From: Mesostigma viride
Taxonomy: Eukaryota; Streptophyta; Mesostigmatophyceae; Mesostigmatales; Mesostigmataceae
Assembly: GCA_009746045.1 (NCBI GenBank)
Contig: RPFO01000130.1
Span: forward strand, 1,519,625 to 1,583,624
DNA: 64,000 nt
Reading direction: 5' to 3'
Shown: one piece after another, positions 6,014 to 44,300 of the stretch
Position numbering within the stretch: position 1 is the first letter of the stretch
Layout: the number at the start of each line of letters is the position of its first letter
Notes under the pieces: model-generated
The model's input: only the letters and a program-made list of their open reading frames with translations
Database searches by the model: none
Told to the model about the DNA's origin: nothing
Program-made: the position numbers and the translations under genes

Positions 6014-15871
<9,858 letters not shown>

Positions 15872-25062: not shown

Positions 25063-28000
25063 TTCGGGGTGTGGGCGAGTGGAGTTGCCGGTAAGCGACA
25101 AATGCGTGCGCTGTAAGCGCCGGAGGCGACGTAGAGGATGGTCATCCTTGCAGTGATGGTTATGGCGCGTGTTGATGCGACAACGCTTCCGCCATTCCTT
25201 TGAGGAGATACGATAGGGGAACCGGCTGCCGAGAAATGAGCAGTGTACCTCCGGTAATCAATGCCACTTGATTGCCGTATTCTGTGCCAGGGTAAGAGCC
25301 AGCCAGAAAGTCATAAGGTGTTTCATGATGATTCAGATGCACTGAGAGCTAAGACATCAAACAGAACCAGAGCGCAGCATATTGAGGTAAGTCAATATTC
25401 ACTGCGTAACACCCGTTACGCGATAGCGGTGGTCCATGATGCATCTCCCCGGGGCAGGATGTGGCTAACAACACAGCTGAAAGGACTCGGAACATGTGTA
25501 TTCCCGGTGGGGGGGCCTTCCAATTGTCACACTTGACTACCTCTTTCATGTAACGAAAAAATTTCCCTTCTTCATGTTCTGGACAGATGAGTCACCGTGC
25601 TCCTGCCTTTGTGTTTTTCTTGCGTTTGTAAAGAGATATGGGAGGGTAAACAAAAGCAAAGGCTGATATTGCCGCGTGTGTGGGGGCCGATCCTTGGTTA
25701 GTCTCTCAAGTGCCCACAGAAAAACACGAGAGTAGCACACACAGCGCGCAGCCCAGCCTAGCTCCCTCAGTAAGAGTAAAAGAAAAATGACAAGAACAGC
25801 AAAACAAACAAGAACAAGAACAAGAACAAAACACAGACACGTAGTGCAATGTGAGCGGAATGATGGAGGAAGGTGAGAGGGGGACATCGTATTGAATGTG
25901 TAGGCATTAAGGCAGCCGAAGCGTCCCATCCCCGGGTACATTCGTGGCTTTCAAAAAAGCCACAACCTGCGTGGAAGAGGAAAATGCAGGAACGATGAGT
26001 AGGATCCTGAATCAAAACGAGGTTGAGGAAACGCGGAGAGTAAGTGCCGGCGGCTGAAACGATTCCGATGGAACTGTGGGTTTCGCCGACATGAGGCGGT
26101 GCAGCTGACTATCTCTATGGTGTCGTGTGTGACCGGGAGTGCCGGTTCACGTGCCCACTCGCCGGACTAGCCAGACGACATGTGTGCTTGGTTGCCCACG
26201 GCTGAAATCCTCTTGCCCGTCATGCAAAGGCCACGCCTCCTAGCCGAAAACGAACTATATTCAACCAATCTAATATCAAGGAGACAACCAGCCAACCAGT
26301 GAGACAACTATGCCTGGACGCATGCTCACATGGGTCTTATCGCACCCACAGAACTTGCCGGATCGTCTATCGTGTCCGATTGCAGCTGTGGCATGCCTCT
26401 AGCATGAAGGAGAAAGGGGGTCTCTGCCCTTTTTTCCTGTTATGCATTAAAAGCACTCCGGTGCTCCGTGATTCCCCAACGGTAGCACGAGTTTAATTAA
26501 TTAATTAATTAATTAAGCAGTCTGCAGGTAGTCCGCCAGCGTCACTAAAATGACACTTTTGTTAATTTGTTAACTGGGGACAACCTAGTCGGATCAAACT
26601 TGGCTCTCAAGGAGACAAAGGCCATGCTATGCGCTACCAGTTGTCAAGCGAGAAAACCACAATATATTGAATGTGCTGTGAAGCCTTGGGCTTGTGTGAC
26701 ACCCTACGTGGCCACAATGGCGCAAAACGGGGCCCTGGCCCCCAGACTATACGAAAGGCAGGATCGGGATGATTAGTATTGGTGTTCATTGTTTTCCCAG
26801 CTCCCTTGGTCAAGCCCGCTGCACCCTCCACATGGACATGCGCACGGTACGTGGACAGTCTTACAGGCAATTGGTTTACCATGGGGCATTTGAAAAGCTC
26901 TAGGTGTGCCTGCATTGGAACACGATGCGAGCTGCGAAGGAAAAGGGAGCGATACCCACATTCAGAATAGCAAGTTTTATTCATGGAAACTTGGCTTGTG
27001 TCACTCTGAACACAAGCACGCAACCTATCCCCCTTAATACTCACCTGCAAACGTACGGGGGCTTGCCATCGCTAGAGCTCCTGTTTCATTCACCCCCAGA
27101 TCAGGACAGCGGCAAGAACAGCAAGCCTTGATGTGGAATGGTTGTGATGCTAGCACGCAGAGTAACCTTGTGTCTCTAAACACGTTACCTATGTTATTCC
27201 CAGACATGTTGCTGGTTCTCAGGAAAACTTTCATGAGCTCCCCCTCACCACCAAAACCTACATGAGATAAGGCATCATAGTCAGCTGGATCACCACCCCG
27301 CCACGGGCTAGCTGGATGAATCCACCACAGCCAGTCATCCCTGCCACATGTAATTGGACCCCCTTATTTCACCCCCGCGGCCTTTGTCCTCCAGGAAAAC
27401 ATTTCTTCCCGGCTCCCCTCTTGAGGACGCTCCTAGGCTTTTCCGCATCGACCATCAATCTCCCCTCCAGAAAACAATGACTCTCCCGTCACTTCACAAT
27501 GACCCCTTTCCGTAGATGATTTTCCAGAGCGGTCTCAGATAGCAAGAGCTGCTTCACTGCTGGTGTCTTCACCGCAATATCCTGCTGCCTTGAAGAAAAC
27601 GTTCTGTTTAACCTGCTTTTTCAAGCTCCAAAAGAATTTTCTAAAGCCCGGGGCTCTCTTATTCACGGCTGTTCTATTTCTAGAAAGCTCTTTTCTGTAC
27701 CGCCCTCCCACTTTCAACAACTCCAGAGCACACAGTATGTCTTGCAAAGACCACTTCTTCTTCTTCCCAACAGCCTGTGTATTGCTGATCAACTAGTTAA
27801 GATGATGCTTTCCGTCCAGCATCACCTCATTCGCCTATTCAATGCACCTGCTTCTCGATTAGAGCTCTCATCTGATCCATCCATCGATTAAGAAACCGAT
27901 TTATGAACCAAACAGAGCTCGTCATGCAGCATCTCCTTTGCCTCCTTGAGAAGACAGTTATCGAATAGAGCTCTCACGTAGTTGATCCACCGATGAGTTA
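25063..28000. other. Gene-poor stretch with repeat B right end
   Basis: No gene I can support. 26300-26515 is the right part of repeat B: a 'gtgtccgattg' block, 'gtggcatgcc', then 'ctccgtgattccccaac' and (TTAA)n at 26493-26515. 'atcaaggagacaaccagc' near 26276 also occurs near 17215 and, as variants, near 32510 and 52630. 27850-28000 contains three short partial copies of the PDI 3' end. The rest is unique, with a Lys/Phe-rich biased segment at 27535-27796 whose coding status I cannot judge. Confidence 0.5.
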
Positions 28001-28029
28001 ATCACTTGACCACGTCATCGAACAACCAA

Positions 28030-31000
28030 TTAGAGCTCGTCATGCACCGTCTCCTCTGCCGCCTCCTTGGCCAGCTCCGTCTCCTCGCCCGTGGCCGCGG
28101 CCGCGCCGCCGTGGCGCGCGGTGAAGCCCTTGATGAACTTGATCAAATCCGCCTCCGAGCGGTCGCCCTCATACGTCTCAACCTCTCCCGTCTTGCCGGA
28201 GTGCATGTAGATGGTGGGGAAGCCCTTGACCTGACAGGGTTGACAAATCAAACCGAGTTGAGATACCATACACCGTGTTAGATAGGACCGTGTTAGATAG
28301 GACCAACTGCATGAATATGGTGGGATGGCCCTTGACCTAGTACAGCACGGCATGGTGGTCGGTAAACACAGCGAATATATAAAGAAGGCATTCGATAGGA
28401 CCAAGTGCATGCACATGGTGGGGTGGCCCTTGACCGACTGACGGTGGACAGGCCGCAACATGAACAGGCAGCACTTGCTGCCATTCTTCCCCACGCTAGT
28501 GCTCATGCTAGTGTAACAGCAACGGAGGTGGCACACTGGCCATGCTTCAGACCAGGTGAGAAATCCCTCCCCTCCCCCGGCCTCGCCGACCCCCAAAACC
28601 CCTCCAACCCCGGCAGTTCTCCCCTACAAGCCAGTGAATGGCAAGAAGAGCGGCGAAGGTGAGCAGGGTATCATAGCAAGGCTAGGAGCAACGATAAACA
28701 CGTGTGCTTTCTTATCCGACTGAAAAGTTGAGAAAGTCTTGATGGGCATGGCATCAATAACGTACTAATATTTTCTTACCAACTGCGTGCAGATTCTTTC
28801 TGGGTGCAACATCATTCGGGTATGCACTACACACACTACACACACTATATATTACTATTTACTACCCCACTATACACGCTATACGCTACACGCTATACAC
28901 ACTATATACTACTATACACTATTACATGGTATACTGCGAGGGTACACCATCATAGTTTAAACAAGCTCCTCCCTATTGAGAGCACCTGGATGGGAATTCA
29001 TAAAACCAGCAGCTCCTAAACCGATTTTTGAGTAGATTTGACTAATCTTTCTTACCGAGAACTTCTTGCTGGGGACGTCATTGGCGGTGGCATCCTGCAA
29101 CCAACAACGGATGCCAACAACAATCGGATACCGATGGACATCGAAGCCAAACCAGATGCCATCAGCGCTGTACACGTGCCATGGCTGATGGCATGGACTG
29201 GACAACCCTTCAACTTAAGGATATGCTCATAGCCGGCCGGTTTGAGAACAAGCACATCACCAACATTGGCTAGGAGCAGAGCTGGCCAAATCGGAACCTC
29301 ACAAACCCAAGCACAGCACACAAGAAACGCTTTGTCTCGATGCATCTTGACACCAAAAAATGAAATAAATTGCACAGAAACGAGACCAGACTTGCCTCAA
29401 CCCCCTTCATGGGGCAACTATCGTGTGTCGTAGGCAAACAGCAAATGGGTAAACTTAACCTGACCACTACACATGACTAAAGATGTGGTTGAAAGGATAG
29501 GGAGGCAACTTCTTCCAGGCCAAAGGCAGATTTCTCTAACCAAGCGAGCAGACAAACGGCCACATAATTAAGTACCCAGCAGCGATCCCAAATGCCTGAG
29601 CTCACATAAATACAAGTTGGTCATGAACTGGACCCCACCCCCTCACATGCTGCATCCACTGGTGGCCACACAATTGCTAGTGTGCTAGTTCACTATAGCC
29701 GCATACAGTACACTACAACCATAGCAAGCGTCCTCGTCCGATGCTGCATCCCTGGTGGCCACACGACACAACAACATTTTGCTGGTGTGCTAGTTCACTA
29801 TAGCCACATATCACCATAGCAAGCAGCCCCTACCATCTTGGGGAAGATGACGTTCAGGTCATCACCTGCAACAGCATACACTACATAAAGTACAGCTTTC
29901 CCGCCCCTAACACCACCGCCATCCTACCATCTTGGCGATGATGACGTTCGGGTCATTCTGGAACTGGGCGGCCACCTTCTCGTAGGTGGGCGCCAGCTTC
30001 TTGCAGTGGCCGCACCAGGGCGCGTAGAACTCGATCATGACTGCAGTCACGTAGGCAGGCAAGCAGGCAGGGGCGTGCATGTTACTTGGTTGGAATCTAT
30101 CAAGCAGGCTGACAATCGATCCCGACTGAATCGGCAAGGAAGGCAGGAATACGTGTGTCATCAGAGTTTCTCTCGCAGGCATCCATCCATGTTACCAAAT
30201 GCTGCCACCCGCCACGCACCATCCTAGCCTAACAGACGTCTCCACATTCACAGACTTTCTCAATAAATCTCAACAAGTTCCCCTGGTGCTCTGCCACCCC
30301 TAGATTCTTGCCCACCCGCACCGTCCCGGGCCCATAATTACTTCTACCAGCCAGGAGCATGATCAAGGACTACAGCCCTGGTAGTGAAAGAGTTTGGTGC
30401 CATACGACCCTGGCAGTATACAAACAAATCTAGATCAACACATCTAGATCAACAAATCTAGAAAAAAGTAGAGATTTAATGGCCCACAGGTCTGCTACCA
30501 CCATCACTTCCGCCGACCATCAATCTCCATAAAGAGATCTAAAGATACGCCGCTCCCTACGCACCGTCCTTGTTACCACCCCACACACCATCCTTTTAGC
30601 ACTGCCGCCCCACCCCCACGCACCGTCCTTGCCCGAGTTGAGGACAACGTCCGCAAAGTTCTTGGCAACCAGCACCGTCACGGGCTCGTCGTTGTCCTCT
30701 GGGATCTCCTCCGACTTGAGGTACGGCTCCAGCTTGCCGTGCTGCATGGGGGAAGAGATGGCAAATAGATTTAGGAAGCAAATGTTAGAAGCAGGCACCA
30801 AAGGGCTCCAGCTTGCCGTGCTGCATGAGGGCAGAGATGACAAACGGACTTAGGGAAGATGACAGACAGACCACTTACGAGCATGCCATCCAGCCACGTC
30901 TCTCTCAAGTCACCTTGTTCAGATACAACCCCTGCAGACCATCATTGTTGCAACTCCACGCTCAAGTCATCTAGCCACTTAGCATCAACTATCTTGGCCC

Positions 31001-34000
31001 ATCCACGTCTTACCCTTGCCTTACCACCCCTTGCCCCCCCCCCCCCCCTACCAGACATAGCACAACGCAAACACCCCCACCACTTGAAATCATCCACCCG
31101 AAAAAGACAGTGATACCCCTCCCGTCGGAGTCGTCCAGTCACTGGGGGATGCTATCCCGCTTGATCTTGGCCGCAATATACTCTACACCTAGCTCCCAAG
31201 TACCGCATACAGTGCATATGACATACAAAATAGGGATATCCACCACGAAGGAACGAGACCCCACACACCCCACCACTCACGTTGAAGTCGTCCAGCCACT
31301 TGGCGATGCTTTCCGGCTTGATCTTGGCCTCGATGTACTTGCTGTCGGTGCTTGTGTCGTGGATCACGATGCCCGGCAGGTCGTCGGTCGTGAGCCCAAA
31401 GTACTTGATCGCCCCGTCGTTCTCCGCGCTGTCCCCGATCACGAAACGCAGGCTGCCCTTGTACTTGGCGGCGGCCGTCTGGAAGGCGGACTTGAACGCG
31501 GTCGCGGTCGGCTCGTCCTCGTACGCGACAAATCCAAGCACCTGGAAAGAGATTGGAAGCATTAAATAGAATGGAAGGGCACGAATCAATTAGACATGGC
31601 CAAATCAAAGGAGTATTTTGTCCTCGTCACGACAAAGCCCCGCACCTGGAGCAACCAAGTAGTAAATAGAACGGAAGGGCATGAATCGATTAGAAATGGC
31701 CCAATTCAAAGAGTATTTTTTCCTCATACCCCAACCACCTGGGGCAAGTGAGCTGTGAATAGGATGGAAGGGGACGAATAAATTTTCATGATTTTGGAAT
31801 GTCCCTATCAAAAAGTGTGTTCTGCCCTCATACACACAACGCCCAGCACCTGAGCCACATGAGCCAACGATGACATTATTATTAATTGATGCTTTGTACT
31901 AAACCTTAAAAAATGTTTTACAAAAACAGGTGGCCTTCCGCTCGTACGCGACAAGCACAAGCACCTGGTAGTGCGGGAAACGTGTATTTGCGCCAATAAG
32001 ACAAAAAAAGAAAAGATGAGGAATGCATTACTAAGACAGGACTGAGCCTCTTAAAAAAGATTAGGAATGCATTACTAAGACAGGACTGAGACTCTTAAAA
32101 AACATTAGGAATGCATTACTAAGACAGGACTGAGACTCTTAAAAAAGATTAGGAATGCATTACTAAGACAGGACTGAGACTCTTAAAAAACATTAGGAAT
32201 GCATTACTAAGACAGGACTGAGACTCTTAAAAAAGATTAGGAATGCATTACTAAGACAGGACTGATACTCTTAAGGTTGCCTAGTCTCAAAGCAAAGAAC
32301 CCAACCGCCTGGCAGGGGCTGGGGGGGGGGAAGGGGAAATACATGCACAACTAAATGCGTGAGTCTATAAGTAAGCATCTGCTCCCTAGTACTGCGAGTT
32401 TCATTAAAGACGTTTCATAAATATTCATTAAGTGACTGTGTTTAATATATATTTTACGAGCAGGAACCCCGTAGAACTTGCCGGAGCCCACCTTGGGGTC
32501 AGCACTATATCCAGGAAACAACCAGCGCAGGCCAGAAATCGGGAGAATCCGGACCATGGTAGCTATAAATATCATTAATTAATTAATTAACTAATTAGTC
32601 TCGTGTCCCCGTTGGGGGACCACGGAGCACTGAGCTCCCCTATTAAGATATAGTGGACGTCTCCCCAGGGCTTCAATATGTACATACATGTCCACAGCTG
32701 GTCTAAAATATGGGCCTCAAGTAGGGCCTCGAGCTATATATATCATACTCTATCCTACTACACACTAGAGTGACCGGTCTTGCGGGCCCACCTTGGGGTC
32801 GGTGTTCTCAAACAGCTTGCGCAGGATGTTGCGGCTCTCTGGGCGCTTGTCCAGGGTGGCCACCAGGGGGGTGGTCGTGTCCTCCAGGAAGTCCTTCACG
32901 TTTGTGCCAGCGAACTCACCCTGCAGACACATATCGTCCCAAAAACATCAAAGGTAAGCATCATCCAAACATGTGGGCACATCAAAGGTAAGCTCAACAT
33001 TGAACCCCGTATGGAGAGAGACGATAATCCTACACAATATGAGCAACCCACCCTGCTGACATGCATCAAGGGCCAAACATCAGACACACACACACACCAT
33101 GCCCCACCCTCATCGTAAACGTCAAGTCGTTGCCCAGCTCATCGAACAACTTTGTCAGCACAACCGTCACAACGGGGAACGGCAGTCACACTTCATTCTA
33201 TTCACACCTAATAACGCTACGACATAATACTCTATCACACTTCTAAAAGTGGTACAACTTCCTCACAACAGTGCTCATCCCCACCGTGAAGTCGTTGCGT
33301 AGCTCGTCGAACTTCTTGAGCACCACGACCGCAGGGGTCGCGGCCGGCGCAGGATCCAGGCCCAGCACGCTGGCGTCCGTCACGTGCGCAAACACCAGGT
33401 CGTCACGCAGGCTGTCTGCCGCCTCCAGATAGTTCTTGAACGCAGCAGAGTCGGTGGACGGGAAGACACCCACCTGCGGGGGGGCAAGGAAGGAGAAGGA
33501 AAAAACGAAGTAGCCGTTAATCAATGAAGTTTGGCTCAATAACAAAGTATTCCTTGGCTAGAGACAGGGGAGAGGAGGAGACCCACGTGACGAACCTGAA
33601 GAACCTGAACTTCAGGTGTTAACTTCAGGTGGATGAGGCTGGGTTAGGAATAGTCAATGGCAGATGACGTCTGCATAAGGCAAATAAGAAAAATTTGGAT
33701 ATGGCAAATAAGAGACAATTGGAAACGACAGAGCCGGCGGAACGCAAGGCATTTGCCTGCCGTGGGACGAGTGAAAAATGGCATTCGTGGATTCGGGAAA
33801 TCTCAGTGGACGGACTTGAACATAGCCTGGACACTCCACCCCATTGCCAAACCCTTTTCTGCTGCTGGGGAACATGGCGACCCGCAGGAGGGTAAGTGCA
33901 AACGATGAGTAGATGTTGTGTTGTTTTCACGAGAAGGCAAAGGAGAAACCAGAAGGGGTAGGAGTTAGGAAAAAATAAGAACCAGAAGACTGAAGAATAC

Positions 34001-36582
34001 AAATGATGAAGAATACCAACACAGGGGATGCAAAAAGAACCATGACAAAGATACAGGTAATAAAGTAACGCTGGTAATGAAGGTGCCATGAAGAAGGCGG
34101 CAAAGGAGGAAAACAGGACAACCTGCACCTTTGGCAACCAGACATCAGTACAAAAAAACAAACTCTAAATAAGGCTTGTTCATGACCCCAATCAGCAATC
34201 ACCACAACACGCGCAGCTCTACCCCAGGCTTGTTCATGACCCCAACACAGCAATCACCACAACACACGCAGCTCTACCCCAGGCTTGTTCATGACCCCAA
34301 TACAGCAATCACCACAACACACGCAGCTCTACCCCAGGCTTGGTTGCGACCCCAATACAGCAATCACCACAACACACGCAGCTCTACCCCAGGCTTGTTC
34401 ATGACCCCAACACAGCAATCACCACAACACACGCAGCTCTACCCCAGGCTTGTTCATGACCCCAACACAGCAATCACCACAACACACGCAGCTCTACCCC
34501 AGGCTTGTTCATGACCCCAACACAGCAATCACCACAACACACGCAGCTCTACCCCAGGCTTGTTCATGACCCCAACACAGCAATCACCACAACACACGCA
34601 GCTCTATCCCAGGCTTGGTTGCGACCCCGACGAAAACATGACAGCAGCGCACCACGACCATTTTTGTTAACGGCGGTGCACCCAGCGCCTCATTTCTGCC
34701 GCACAAACGGGAGCACGGGCCAGCCTTACTACACAAGACAGCGTCACTTCTATTTCTAGCTAAGCACCACCTCGACCTCGTCGGCGGAGCGCAGTGCGTA
34801 GAGGGCCTCCCTTGATCCGCGCCAAGTGTCGGCACCTGATGGCCTCCCTATCCGCCACCGTGGCAGCTCTCAACCACGACCACCACTCACCACGACCACC
34901 TCGTTGGCGGAGCGCAGCGTGTCGAGCGCCTCGCCGCTAGCCAGCAGCGAGGAGGCCGGTCCGATCGCCTTCTGCATGTAGGAAACGATGCCGGCCGCCT
35001 CGCGCGGGCCGTTGTAGTCGGAGGGCTGCTTGGCCCCCTTCTTGAAGATCTTGATGGTGGGGAACCCACGCACGCCGTAGCGCGCGCCCAGCGCCCGGTT
35101 CTTGTCGTCGGCCGCGTCCACCTGGTGGTGTGGTGGTCAGGTGGTGGTGGGGTGGTGGGGTGAGTTGCCAAAGCAGAATGAAGAAAAAGTGGATGCCATG
35201 TTAGCTGCCATATTCTTCTTATCAGCCACATCCCCCTTGCTGCATATGTATGGGGGGGGGGGGGGGGGGGAGGGGAGAGAATCCAAGGGAACAAATAAGG
35301 GGGGAAGTAGCTAGTTCAGGGTCGACCACAATTTGGAAAAGGGCACCAAAGCAACCATGGGCGGCAAATCACGTCAGTTTTGCCTGACACGCGGTGTGTC
35401 TCATCCCCGGGTCACCGTAACCTTACAAGAGCACCTTGATGTACGTTGTACATCGACAAGTGGATCAAACATAGCAAGTCTCATCCCCTGACTGCCGTGA
35501 CCTGTTCCTGACACAAAACATGCGCAGGCTCTTGCCCCACCCATTATGAGTACTGCCCGCTCGCCACCCAGCTGCTATTGCGAGTATCCACAAGCTTAAG
35601 TTACTGATAGTAGATACAGCCACCCCGGGTACTGCCCGCTCGCCACCCAGCTGCTATTGCGAGTATCCACAAGCTTAAGTTACTGATAGTAGATACAGCC
35701 ACCCCGGGTACTGCCCGCTCGTCACAGCTTTTCACATCGCCGCTGCCGTGTTGCATGCCGTCCAGTTCTTAAAATAGTTCAATTAGTATCTCAATTTTCT
35801 AAATTATTTGTCACCCTCCATACTGACACGTCACACTCACACAGCAAAACAAAATAGCACGCCACCAGCCGCAGTCACTACGTATTACCACCTCAGACAG
35901 TCACAACTATTTAACCTTCGTGAGGTCCTCGTGTTATGCATCATGCGCTTCGCATACTCGAAATGTAGCCTGCTTGCTTGTCTGCCCAGGAAAGCAAAGC
36001 TAACTCCCTTGATGGGAAGAAAGAAGACCATGGGGTCCAAGTGGGCCGCACTAGCATCAAGTTACTATGCGCTTGGCGGCGATACAATACCGAGCTCGGA
36101 TTGCCGATGGCCCAGGAACTGCCCCCCACTATGCATCATAGCATCACAAGCTCCTACGCGTGGCAAAGCAAGTCACCTTGACAAGGTAAACTGGGGGATC
36201 ATTCTTCTTCAGCTCGCCAGCTGCCTTCTCATACTGTGGGACGAAGAAGGAGGATGACAATCGGCAGCAGACACGACGCGGGCAACGTCGGCAGCGCTTG
36301 CAATGGGCGTCAGCACCACGAGTGTGTGGACAAGAAAAAAGAACGGGAAAAAACGCATAAATCTAACATGGCCGTCCAGAACATTTCCTTGCGCACCTCT
36401 GGCTCCAACTTCTTGCAGTGGCCGCACCACGGGGCATAGAATTCCGCCACCACGATGTCATGGCTGGCGATAAAATCGTCGAAAGTGTCAATATCGAGTG
36501 CCGTGACCTCCTCGGCATACACAGAAAATGGCACGATGGCAAGAACTGCAACAACTGCGAGGAACACACGAGAGGAAACCAT
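28030..36582 (-). CDS. PDI: Protein disulfide isomerase, ER lumen, ten exons
   Basis: Exons in coding order: 36582-36397, 36233-36177, 35121-34891, 33473-33285, 32920-32792, 31541-31281, 30741-30624, 30040-29928, 29094-29056, 28230-28030. All introns are GT-AG and the phases close, giving 507 residues. Residues 1 to about 23 are a signal peptide ([17 protein letters not shown]). Two thioredoxin domains carry CGHC active sites at 53-56 and 400-403 (both [12 protein letters not shown]), each with a later cis-Pro segment ([17 protein letters not shown]). Between them are two redox-inactive thioredoxin-like domains. The C-terminal acidic tail ends HDEL, the ER retention signal. The enzyme forms and rearranges disulfides in secretory proteins. 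Length and a-b-b'-a' order are standard for the family. Nothing is missing or broken. Introns are packed with minisatellites and partial copies of exon edges. Confidence 0.97.
31511..31965 (-). repeat. About 105-bp tandem repeat starting in PDI exon 6
   Basis: The 5' end of exon 6 with its acceptor and ~80 bp of intron recurs in four to five decayed copies (starting about 31511, 31616, 31718, 31826 and 31935). Each copy preserves 'gcacctgg' (exon start plus acceptor AG on the minus strand) and 'gaatggaagggcacgaat'-like sequence. Confidence 0.8.
32019..32275. repeat. 44-bp tandem repeat in PDI intron
   Basis: About six copies of 'aggaatgcattactaagaca' plus 24 further bases, almost identical, in the intron between exons 5 and 6. 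Confidence 0.95.
34172..34632. repeat. 55-bp tandem repeat in PDI intron
   Basis: About eight copies of a unit containing 'caggcttgttcatgacccc' and 'caatcaccacaacacacgca', 54-55 bp period, in the intron between exons 3 and 4. The open frames across it are low-complexity artefacts. Confidence 0.95.
35550..35730. repeat. 79-bp tandem duplication in PDI intron
   Basis: Unit starts 'gtactgcccgctcg' at 35550 and 35629, with a partial third at 35708. The copies are essentially identical, so the duplication is recent. Confidence 0.95.
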
Positions 36583-36952
36583 GGCTGCCGTCCTTCGGTC
36601 GTCCGCACGCCCCGCAGGGAATGTGCAGCACACCTTTTTGCCGATGCACAGAAGTAATCCACGCCGCGACTGTTGTTGTTGTTGTGTCCCACGCCGCGAC
36701 TGTACGATCGCTGTCACCTTGATGGGAAAGTATCAAGGCAGGCGCTCGCCTCCAGCGCACACGGGTACTCGGGTCGTGATTCGCACGCATCTTTGATGGC
36801 CCTGGCCCTACGAAGTTGTGCGCGCGCCAACTCACCTTGCGGCGTTGATTGGTGGACTTGCGTCGGACGGGCGAACTCGGGTGCCGGTTCTCGTCCCCCA
36901 GGGCCTTATTACTGAGTGCGCCAACCGGTGCCATGACTGCCATCCATCGCGT

Positions 36953-41318: not shown

Positions 41319-44300
41319 ATGACAGCAAGGGAAGCAGGTGTTGGGCGCGCCCTATTCGGTGGCGCCATGCAGGGCGTCATACCCGCCCGCTTCTTGGTGA
41401 GTGGCTTATCGGCATCAATATGCCTATGTTGCCGGAGAGAACCGTCAGTTTCTGAGGGTTCACAGTCAAATGAGGCAAACACGATCTGGCAACGCGCTCC
41501 CTAGAGTTCTCAGATTTCCATCTGTCGCTAAGTGTGCCGTGAGAACGGCGCTGGCATTATCGGCGTCATGGTTATTTGAACGTACATCACCCGCAATGGA
41601 CATTCATTCTCGGTCTTGGCTACCAATGTTATAATAACTTACATATGTAATACCTTCGGGCTCTTGGCGAGTTTTGCCAGCAAGTCAACGGTCATTTTCC
41701 TACCCCGACAAAATTATTATGGGTAGGTCAGGCCCAGCCGTCGTTACTGTTGGTTCGAATACAAGCTGAAGCTTTAGCAGTAATCCCAAATGCGTGTAGT
41801 ATTGTGCAGGCCGGCATTGAATTGTGAAAGCTGCGGCAACGCTTTCTATAGACGCTTTCCCTCTTGGTACATCATTGGCGTCCTTCCCCCCACATGCCTG
41901 CCGCACGCCGTTCCCACAAGCTTGATTTCTATATCCCCTATAATAAGTCCAGATTTTAGAACTGCGGGGAATTTACTCAACCATATGTTGTATTTTCCAC
42001 CTCAATCAAGCCTTGTGGAGCTTCAGCTTCTTTTGACTGCAGTATTCTTTATATGTACTCTATAATTATTTGTGTCTGCAGTCAAATTTGTTTGAGTCGG
42101 CTGTGTTGCATTTCCTGATATACTCCCCCCCATTCGGTGCTTCTCCCATCAATGGGTTAACCCCTCATTTCAAAACCTGCTGGCTTCTCTTGTGCTTCGC
42201 CTACCAAATGGTTGACCCCTCATTACAACACCTGCGGGCTTCTCTTTCAGGACGTCAGCGACTTCCGGCCTGTCCCAGACAACCAGGTACGCCCTACCTC
42301 TCATTCTCCTCATTTTCTGTCCCATCTCAAGTAGCGCCTGTAGCGGTCCCTGTGCTTCTTCGTCCCAGACAACCAGGTATGCCCTGCCCACCCTCATTCT
42401 CGTCGTTCCTCAACATGTTATATTTCCTCCTATCCCAGATAGTGCATTTACTAATAAATAAATGAGTAATCAGGACTTGGCACATAACAAAGAACCCCAT
42501 GATGGTATCATGAGTGGCTTTCACGTATAGTAGTATGACAAGCGATAAATTAGTAACTCCTGACTAACTCCCTCGTGGTGGTATCACGCACTGCTTTCAC
42601 ATCTGTGACCTGAGACTATTCTGGCGAACCATCGTGGCATGGCATTTCGCTGGCCGCCCCCCCCCCACACACACTAACACCTATGCACCCTGGCAGGAGG
42701 TACTGGCGGACGGCGACCGTGACCAGAGCATCATCATCGAGCTGCTGGAACGCGCGCAGCATGTGCCGGTAGGCAGTAGGTGGTCACTATACCAATGCGT
42801 CACGGTCACTACAGGAGAATCCCATGGTCACTATCTATCCATCATCGAGCGACTGGAGCGCATGCAGCATGTCGGGGTGGGCATCGGGCTCCACAAAGGT
42901 CACCGTAGCAGCGCACCCCATCGTCACTGTAGGAGTGCCCCGTTTCATTCCCTCGCCCATCCCAGATATTGGACCCACTGTGTAAGGGCAGCTTCCTCTG
43001 AGGGAGTAATTAGAAGCAATTCCCATCATCGCACCCACTCTCTTGATTGCACCCATCGCAGCATGCTTCCACCACCTATGTCACTTGCTAGTCCATCCCA
43101 CCCACATTGACTCCTCCACCCACCATTCCCGCTTGCCCACCGGTCGGTACTGGTCGCGCACGTTGTTCCTGCTATCGGCCCGGCCTGCCAGGACGCGGAG
43201 TGCGCTTCGTGGTTCTTCCACGACCTGGCAGGGGAGATGAGCGCTGGCTCTGCGGTACGTGGCCCTTTCAGCATACTAATAACCTATACGATGTGTTGTA
43301 TGCTCTCTGGCCTACGTCCTATTTCCTGTGTGCACCCTTTCCTTTCCGGGCTGGGGAGATGAGCGCTGCTTTGTGCAGTAAGTGGGTTAGGCAGGGCTGT
43401 GTCCTCTTTCCTAAAGACAGGGCTGTGTCCTGAAGGCAGGGCTGTGTCATAAAGGTAGGGGGCTTGTGTCCTTTCTAGGGGGCTTGTGTCCTACCTATAC
43501 CCCAAGTGCCCCAAGTCCCATACTCCTGCCACGACAGTGCGGGAGAGATGAGCGCTGGCTTGGCCGTGGGTGGCGAACCAGGATGTACTTTTGAATTTGT
43601 CTATATCCTATGCCCGTTGCCTTGTATGGAAAGGTATTGGAGTGGAGGTCTTGTCCGACTACTGTACGGGCGAACCAGGGTGTCCTTTTGGATTATCTAG
43701 TAGAATATGCTAGGCCCTGAGGCTCAGGGAGAGGCTTTTATATTCCCCCAATCCGGTGCCTTTAAATGTGTTCCAAGCTTATCTGTGGTCTCTGGACCAT
43801 GGTCGGGGCGGCCTTACTGCATCCGCCATGCTTTTGCTATGCCGAAGCTTTATTGCGCCCACAGTTGCGCCCGCACCATGATGCGGAGAGAGCGCTCCGT
43901 GGCCTGCCCACTTGAGGCAGTGAGAGAAGCTAGGGCGCCCTCCCTCCTTGTTGTGTATAAGGGTTGAAGGTTGCTTTTTTGGTACCCACGTGACGCAGTC
44001 TATGTGATAATTAATCAATCAATCAATTAATCCTATGCCCTTTGCCTATCAGCTGTCTCCTGCATGGAAAGTGACAAAAGGGGGGCCCGAACTGAGTGGC
44101 AATACCAGGCCGCCTCGTCTGCTCTTCCTCCGTCATTCAGATGGCCCTGAGTGTGTTTGCCGTAGGTAATAAGATATGGATACTACACCGATAGCACGTT
44201 GTTCACATTAATTATGATAGGCCATGCTCAACTATGCATTAATTAGGTCATGTGTTTACTATGCTAGGCAATGTGCCTTTGGTGCCTTGGTGGATGTCTT

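Follow-up and report, generated by a model that had tools for sequence, protein, structure and literature searches.

How does an intron become longer? Intron growth is usually attributed to mobile elements, and the question raised by one 64,000-nucleotide stretch of the genome of Mesostigma viride, a streptophyte green alga, is whether the edges of the bordering exons can be copied into introns repeatedly enough to lengthen them. This stretch (hereafter the window) carries, on its minus strand, a gene for protein disulfide isomerase (PDI) that has 10 coding exons and encodes 507 amino acids; all its introns are of the GT-AG type and they sum to 7,029 bp. A sequence-only reading of the gene had claimed that decayed copies of exon edges recur in the adjoining introns, and had suggested that introns lengthen by tandem duplication across the exon boundary. 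The exon-edge copying in the PDI introns is real. Two points need correcting, however: spacing, not tandem arrangement, marks many of the copies, and it is donor edges, not exon edges generally, that show the bias.

The gene itself is an ordinary protein disulfide isomerase. The best match of its translation is P0001, a published Mesostigma viride model (jgi Mesvir1), which is fully identical except for 13 residues that it lacks. These correspond to exon 9, which is present in the related proteins P0002 and P0003, and the absence from P0001 is probably an annotation slip.

Copies of exon edges in the PDI introns

The exon-only test took 40 bp from each of the 18 PDI edges, or the full exon where this is shorter, and aligned them to every intron. 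Seven edges, namely the ends of exons 3, 4, 6 and 8 and the starts of exons 6, 7 and 10, score 33-45 on the adjoining intron, against a maximum of 23 on the other eight introns and of 24 in 200 shuffles each; the shuffle maximum across all 18 edges is 26. The end of exon 5 is not recovered from its exon bases alone (p 0.11); when 20 intron bases are added, 22 of 24 positions are identical at 32477-32500, across the splice site (p 0.001). The affected edges then number eight and belong to seven exons. All eight edges named in the sequence-only reading, which had put the number of affected exons at seven or more of the ten, are thus recovered, and its positions agree with those of Table 1 to within about 10 bases. 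A second, weaker copy of the exon 6 end, which had been placed at 30955-31005, is recovered as well, at 30957-30983. The four or five copies proposed for the exon 6 start stand only in part: four were located. Copies 1 and 4 are significant (p 0.001) and copy 3 is marginal (p 0.019); copy 2 does not reach significance by itself (p 0.16), although a 172-column alignment at 73% passes through it.

Self-comparison of the gene recovered the copies and added one that had been overlooked, a copy of the stop-codon region in the 3' flank. Since this copy crosses no splice site, splicing is not required for making such copies. Most PDI copies lie 79-204 bp from their sources in the self-comparison, and the most distant exon 6 copy lies 423 bp away. 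The offsets sum to about 1.5 kb of the 7.0 kb of PDI intron as the span from true edge to farthest copy, to which a dispersed element in intron 5 contributes about 158 bp. The splice-edge copies contain 17-59 bp of a single exon edge; that of the exon 7 start is made of 17 exon and 34 intron bases, and the two copies of the exon 10 start have common flanking filler as well (28293-28337 and 28391-28435, 89%). Introns 2, 3 and 5 also carry young tandem duplications of intron sequence only (Table 1).

Table 1. The PDI gene, the copies of its edges and the intron-only arrays (positions in the window)
Feature	Position	Strand	Details
PDI gene (protein disulfide isomerase), coding exons 1-10	28030-36582	-	Gene model, with identity to P0001 outside exon 9
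Exons 1-4	36397-36582, 36177-36233, 34891-35121, 33285-33473	-	
Exons 5-7	32792-32920, 31281-31541, 30624-30741	-	
Exons 8-10	29928-30040, 29056-29094, 28030-28230	-	
Copy a of exon 10 start (28202-28232)	28308-28338	-	Offset 106; AG kept; 84% over 31 bp
Copy b of exon 10 start	28404-28435	-	Offset 204; AG lost; 88% over 32 bp
Copy of exon 8 end (29923-29956)	29829-29862	-	Offset 94; GT kept; 91% over 34 bp
Copy of exon 7 start (30725-30775)	30804-30854	-	Offset 79; CAG kept; 88% over 51 bp
Copy of exon 6 end (31272-31339)	31115-31182	-	Offset 157; GT lost; ungapped, 82% over 68 bp
Weaker copy of exon 6 end	30957-30983	-	22/27 identical; p 0.001
Exon 6 start copies 1-4	31620-31968	-	Unit about 105 bp; CAG kept in all
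Exon 6 start copies singly	about 31620-31645, 31721-31740, 31826-31849, 31941-31968	-	
Copy of exon 5 end	32477-32500	-	Offset 300; GT kept; 22/24 across splice site
Copy of exon 4 end (33274-33331)	33109-33166	-	Offset 165; GT lost; 74% over 58 bp
Copy of exon 3 end (34888-34932)	34765-34809	-	Offset 123; GT kept; 82% over 45 bp
Copy of stop-codon region (28024-28064), 3' flank	27906-27946	-	Offset 118; 85% over 41 bp; p 0.001
Intron-only young tandem array, intron 5	32011-32274		44-bp unit, 6 copies
Intron-only young tandem array, intron 3	34172-34617		55-bp unit, 8 copies
Intron-only young tandem duplication, intron 2	35550-35725		79-bp unit, 2.2 copies, 98-99%

Dispersed repeats and assembly artefacts

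The sequence-only reading had also held that no mobile element explains the copies. The assembly searched amounts to 440 Mb in 2,243 contigs, the Mesostigma genome being given as 441.8 Mb in its published description (PMC6947507). Genome searches with four stretches of the gene (28030-29000, 29600-32000, 32745-34160 and 34640-36590) revealed no dispersed family for the PDI copies. Apart from the locus itself and simple-sequence hits, they yielded one match of 50 bp within exon 8, which is probably a paralogue, another disulfide isomerase gene. For the copies within these stretches, the piecewise searches rule out a dispersed repeat, be it an introner or another element, and to this extent the claim stands. 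The copy of the exon 5 end lies outside them, and the best 40 of the 1208 candidates from a whole-gene search were dominated by the intron 5 element. The search for dispersed copies covered those of PDI.

The dispersed element in intron 5 (32558-32746, about 155 bp) is 84-91% identical at nearly 40 other places among the matches listed and is flanked by near-identical 15-bp direct repeats; it is possibly an insertion of the short interspersed element (SINE) type. It sits between the exon 5 end copy and its true edge. Since the copy lies beyond the element as seen from the exon, it is probably older than the insertion.

Assemblies can mis-size arrays, and intron 5 does contain this one dispersed element. 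The PDI copies are, however, 74-91% identical to their sources, a divergence too great for assembly errors, and together with the outcome of the piecewise searches this makes it extremely improbable that an assembly artefact or a dispersed repeat lies behind them.

Recurrence in chaperonin and kinesin genes

Exon-edge copying is not peculiar to the PDI gene. Chaperonin (PF00118) and kinesin (PF00225) genes were picked independently of the PDI finding, and profile anchors together with GT/AG served to model 37 introns in nine chaperonin-family and five kinesin genes, giving 92 edges when PDI is included; the splice models of L044 were those compared with a published protein. L051 was left out of the counts as a second copy of L050, while the chaperonin loci L043, L045, L046, L052 and L054, which are without a modelled intron, were included in the annotation-free counts. 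In the exon-only test with 40 bp, a score of at least 26 on the adjoining intron is reached by 7 of 18 PDI, 6 of 44 chaperonin and 5 of 30 kinesin edges, so that 11 of the 74 modelled edges outside PDI have copies. When the same edges are set against the introns of other genes, the number expected at this score for all 92 edges is 0.04; among 3832 control scores, two are 26 or more, and the larger of them (40) comes from a kinesin exon whose match is a paralogue's copied exon edge. An annotation-free test, in which profile-defined exon stretches were compared with the adjoining 900 bp, found copies for 19 of 69 ends and 8 of 70 starts (p 0.019), and for none of 77 interior stretches. Likewise, no copy of a whole exon with both splice sites, as in tandem exon duplication, was seen in PDI.

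Four of these genes (L044, L053, L057 and L058) have arrays that start inside an exon and continue into the intron, in which the process can be seen directly. In kinesin L058, the last 28 exon bases, the donor and intron sequence are repeated head to tail in three further copies (best 95.1%), the last of which retains the exon part and loses the unit about 25 bases into the intron. Chaperonin L053 is similarly built, with the last 20 exon bases and three further copies (best 98.5%). In the chaperonin gamma gene (L044), nine more copies of the exon end and its donor come after the original, spaced 48 bp apart (L044 5504-5945), each with an exact donor, GAGAGCCAAG/GTG, and an open, in-frame 16-codon repeat. 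In the published protein P0121 the junction is at the first donor, and all nine copies are passed over; since the repeat is open and in frame, missplicing would lengthen the protein rather than stop translation. Kinesin L057 has a perfect 70-bp duplication followed by a partial copy (30 exon and 8 intron bases) at 90%, and its array may have been seeded by exchange between the exon edge and its own earlier copy. Kinesin L060, by contrast with these arrays, carries a young spaced copy of 58 bp (93%, offset 97) that runs about 37 bp into the intron, with unrelated sequence between copy and source.

One chaperonin gene is present in the assembly twice, as L050 and L051, which align in two blocks at 96% and 93% identity. 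Between them there are three indels of at least 15 bp; two, of 18 and 43 bp, are tandem duplications, so that the duplication process looks recent or ongoing. The two also differ by about 3.1 kb in one intron, and are either haplotypes or a recent duplicate.

An excess of copies at donor edges

The involvement of exon boundaries in general, as the sequence-only reading had it, is not supported. Including PDI, 14 of 46 donor edges have copies versus 4 of 46 acceptor edges (Fisher p 0.016); outside PDI the figures are 10 of 37 and 1 of 37 (p 0.007). Local duplications were then clustered over 217 kb, with offsets of 40-450 bp, E 1e-3 and a complexity filter, clusters of 93% or more being called young; these cut-offs were chosen during the analysis. 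The positional null was obtained by placing size-matched pseudo-exons at random 400 times. Clusters number 22 at exon ends, 7 at exon starts and 71 elsewhere, and duplication is thus far from confined to exon edges. The 22 exon-end clusters compare with a null mean of 4.7 (maximum 11 in 400 placements), whereas the 7 exon-start clusters show no clear excess over their mean of 4.7 (p 0.18). With the window excluded, there are 16 at ends versus 4.2 expected and 4 at starts versus 4.3; young clusters number 6 at ends versus 1.1 (maximum 4 in 400 placements) and 1 at starts versus 1.7. Local duplication is therefore general in the sampled DNA, and exon ends, that is donors, carry four to five times their random share.

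The 37 modelled and 9 PDI introns are skewed in base composition, with a GC skew of +0.31 after the donor and of -0.36 before the acceptor.

Decoy splice sites

The copies leave decoy splice sites behind them, and most retain the dinucleotide, as had been noticed from the sequence: GT or AG is kept in 9 of 12 PDI copies (the losses being in the exon 4 end, the exon 6 end and exon 10 copy b) and in 13 of 18 scored copies from all genes. Nine of ten PDI decoys, when tried as splice sites, would introduce a stop codon, either at once or through a shift of frame. The tenth, copy b of the exon 10 start, stays open, but its AG is gone. The published proteins of both PDI (P0001) and chaperonin gamma (P0121) use the outermost splice sites. 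No new intron arising from a duplication was seen in these two genes, where the copies stay within the same intron.

A proposed mechanism

We think it probable that the copies come from recurrent short duplications made during break repair, which are kept where the outermost splice site still works. The copies themselves, their locality, their recurrence in several genes, the young tandem arrays and the donor excess are shown by the data; as to the repair route, the choice of splice site and the cause of the donor excess, we infer the following. Short local duplications, with copies some 25-100 bp long at offsets that are mostly 57-128 bp, arise repeatedly in the Mesostigma genome, their source being probably the error-prone repair of staggered or paired-nick breaks, which would often leave unrelated filler between the copies. 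Where a duplication spans an exon edge and the outermost site is still used, the protein would remain the same and the intron would become longer, with a copy of the edge and of its splice site inside it. Earlier copies may seed tandem arrays through slippage or unequal exchange. The intron-derived parts would fade quickly, and the exon-derived parts would remain recognisable, in part because the source exon is under constraint. Duplications at donors would be tolerated because the upstream donor is transcribed first and still chosen, which is the likely reason for the donor excess; a duplication at an acceptor would be less tolerated because the copy would be exposed first.

Intron starts may, in addition, be hotspots of duplication and so contribute to the donor excess. 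A bolder version, which we regard as conceivable and no better than tentative, is that donors are duplication hotspots, transcription or splicing making the start of the intron prone to breaks and first-come choice of the donor hiding the result, so that introns would lengthen step by step from the 5' side and accumulate intact decoy donors in rows, which the splicing machinery would have to ignore.

Weighing the evidence

In favour of the break-repair reading stand the recurrence of edge copies in three kinds of gene, against two control scores and no exon interior; the donor excess; the arrays that run out of exons; the tandem indels between L050 and L051; the stop-codon copy; the outermost sites in both published proteins; and the stops that most PDI decoys would introduce. 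A number of observations weigh against it, or restrict the form that it can take. When a copy is counted as spaced if it is shorter than 0.9 of its offset, 15 of the 22 exon-end clusters are spaced, as are 6 of 7 exon-start and 39 of 71 other clusters, leaving as tandem 7 of 22, 1 of 7 and 32 of 71, respectively; the young exon-end clusters comprise 4 tandem and 2 spaced. The offsets of the 29 edge clusters, by contrast, agree with break-repair duplications of the rice type, whose size is mostly 50-125 bp: they range from 57 to 354 (median 95), with 24 of 29 within 57-128. In 8 of 10 PDI copies, there is no similarity (z below 1) in the intron stretch that a tandem unit would need, the exceptions with a matching remainder being the exon 6 start array and the stop-codon copy. 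Over 18 copies, the intron flank has a mean z of 2.8 versus -0.06 for mismatched pairs (p 0.004), six copies carrying the signal; the 12 copies with an exon identity of 0.83-0.945 average about 0.2. Simulated decay of contiguous tandem copies, with a fixed exon and a neutral intron, gives z values of 5.2, 3.1, 2.2 and 1.4 as the indel rate rises. Only six young exon-end clusters are available, one of them based on a 24-bp match. Introns with and without donor copies do not differ in length (803 versus 656.5 bp, p 0.36), nor do donors with and without copies differ in G content (p 0.58), and G-richness was not retained as a cause of the donor excess. Finally, acceptor copies with an intact AG lie upstream of PDI exons 6, 7 and 10, and oppose a strict first-come choice.

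Plain tandem duplication for all copies is rejected on these grounds, the intron remainder being unmatched and the decay simulation disagreeing. Of the lengthening by tandem duplication that had been proposed, what stands is that the process is local, recurrent, spans exon edges and lengthens introns; what is not supported is tandem as its general form. The exon part of older copies outlives the intron part beyond the expectation of neutral tandem decay. Many copies may have been made short, with an end close to the donor; introns may turn over by larger rearrangements; or conservation or conversion may maintain the copies.

The last of these options can be put as a separate explanation, in which the exon-like parts stay alike either because selection holds them as alternative splice sites or because the exon converts them, and the remaining intron sequence turns over. 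The longer survival of the exon parts and the retention of GT or AG in most scored copies are as it would predict, but nearly all PDI decoys would introduce a stop and three of twelve copies have no GT or AG, and we hold it to be the least likely of the three biological alternatives. Scarcely more likely is copying linked to splicing itself, in which pieces ending just past the donor would be copied, for example by repair of breaks or of RNA-DNA hybrids, so that the 5' splice site would set the end. The PDI copies of the exon 3, 4, 6 and 8 ends, with 29-59 bp of exon and only 3-11 bp of intron, are in keeping with this, as are the lack of further intron similarity in most older copies, the donor excess and the G-skewed intron starts, which could favour RNA-DNA hybrids at donors. 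On the other hand, younger copies reach far into the intron (about 37 bp in L060, and through whole units in L053 and L058), the stop-codon copy needs no splicing, and G content fails to separate the copied donors.

A stronger competitor, which we consider possible although clearly less probable than break repair with retention, is that duplication is uniform and that edges look special since the exon copy is fixed by selection, with neither hotspot nor splice-related retention. The 71 clusters away from edges speak for a general process, older copies must stay recognisable for longer where their source exon is constrained, and the young exon-end clusters are few. Yet these young clusters, little affected by decay, are in excess at ends and not at starts, and exon starts, which are equally constrained, show no clear excess. 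The same young-cluster excess, few as its members are, disfavours detection bias as the full explanation. Break repair, with retention where the outermost site still works, thus remains the reading that we prefer.

Other features of the window

Positions 6415-10141 hold a 3.7-kb array of the hexamer TCCTTG (about 626 copies), adjoined by minisatellites of 45-46 bp at 10150-10859 and 12072-12555. An open frame at 42568-43107 has a sub-threshold match to Mog1, a Ran-interacting protein (21.1 bits versus a cut-off of 27.4); this was the one sub-threshold Pfam match from 20 of the 80 listed open frames tried, and the other genes of the window were left out.

Relation to known duplications

Mutations of this type are already known; the donor bias is new, and so is the record that introns keep. 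In a potato RdRp gene, a single duplication across an intron-exon boundary created a new intron (PMC4974935). As in Mesostigma, that duplication takes in the 3' part of an intron together with the beginning of the following exon, and a small stretch that used to be exonic becomes intronic; in Mesostigma, by contrast, no new intron was seen, and existing introns lengthen, in many genes and mostly at donors. Intron gain through tandem duplication of a coding AGGT segment (Rogers 1989 and Hellsten 2011, cited in PMC4974935), and Drosophila intron gains by coding duplication (PMC2891723), are also on record. The AGGT route resembles the present case in that a local duplication of exon sequence alters gene structure and leaves the protein the same, but it makes an intron inside an exon, whereas the Mesostigma copies sit within existing introns.

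As for the duplications themselves, local duplications are the commonest class of insertion in rice, enriched at 50-200 bp and declining above 125 bp (PMC7971508). These patch or paired-nick duplications resemble those of Mesostigma in size (compare the median edge offset of 95 bp). In the portion of that account at hand the rice events are perfect tandem ones and no link to splice sites is drawn, while the Mesostigma exon-end copies are mostly spaced and in excess at donors. In mammalian cells, from which the route is known, Pol alpha-primase produces tandem duplications at breaks with 3' overhangs (PMC8355091); they are small, roughly matching the overhang in length, and this would be a defined route to such duplications in Mesostigma. 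The mean Mesostigma intron is given as 1,142 bp, with length linked to repetitive elements, which make up 30.1% of intron space (PMC6947507); exon-edge copies go unmentioned in the accessible sections of that account. A report of introns lengthening by recurrent copying of the donor edge was not found in a search that left most subscription journals outside its coverage, which makes this weak evidence of absence.

What the copies may tell about intron growth

As preserved references, exons make short duplications legible, and the rate and position of intron growth can thereby be measured in one genome, without relatives. The natural rows of decoy donors, such as the nine exact copies after one chaperonin exon, are a ready test of how the correct splice site is chosen. 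The donor excess, if it proves to be genome-wide, would tie the duplication of DNA to the structure of genes.

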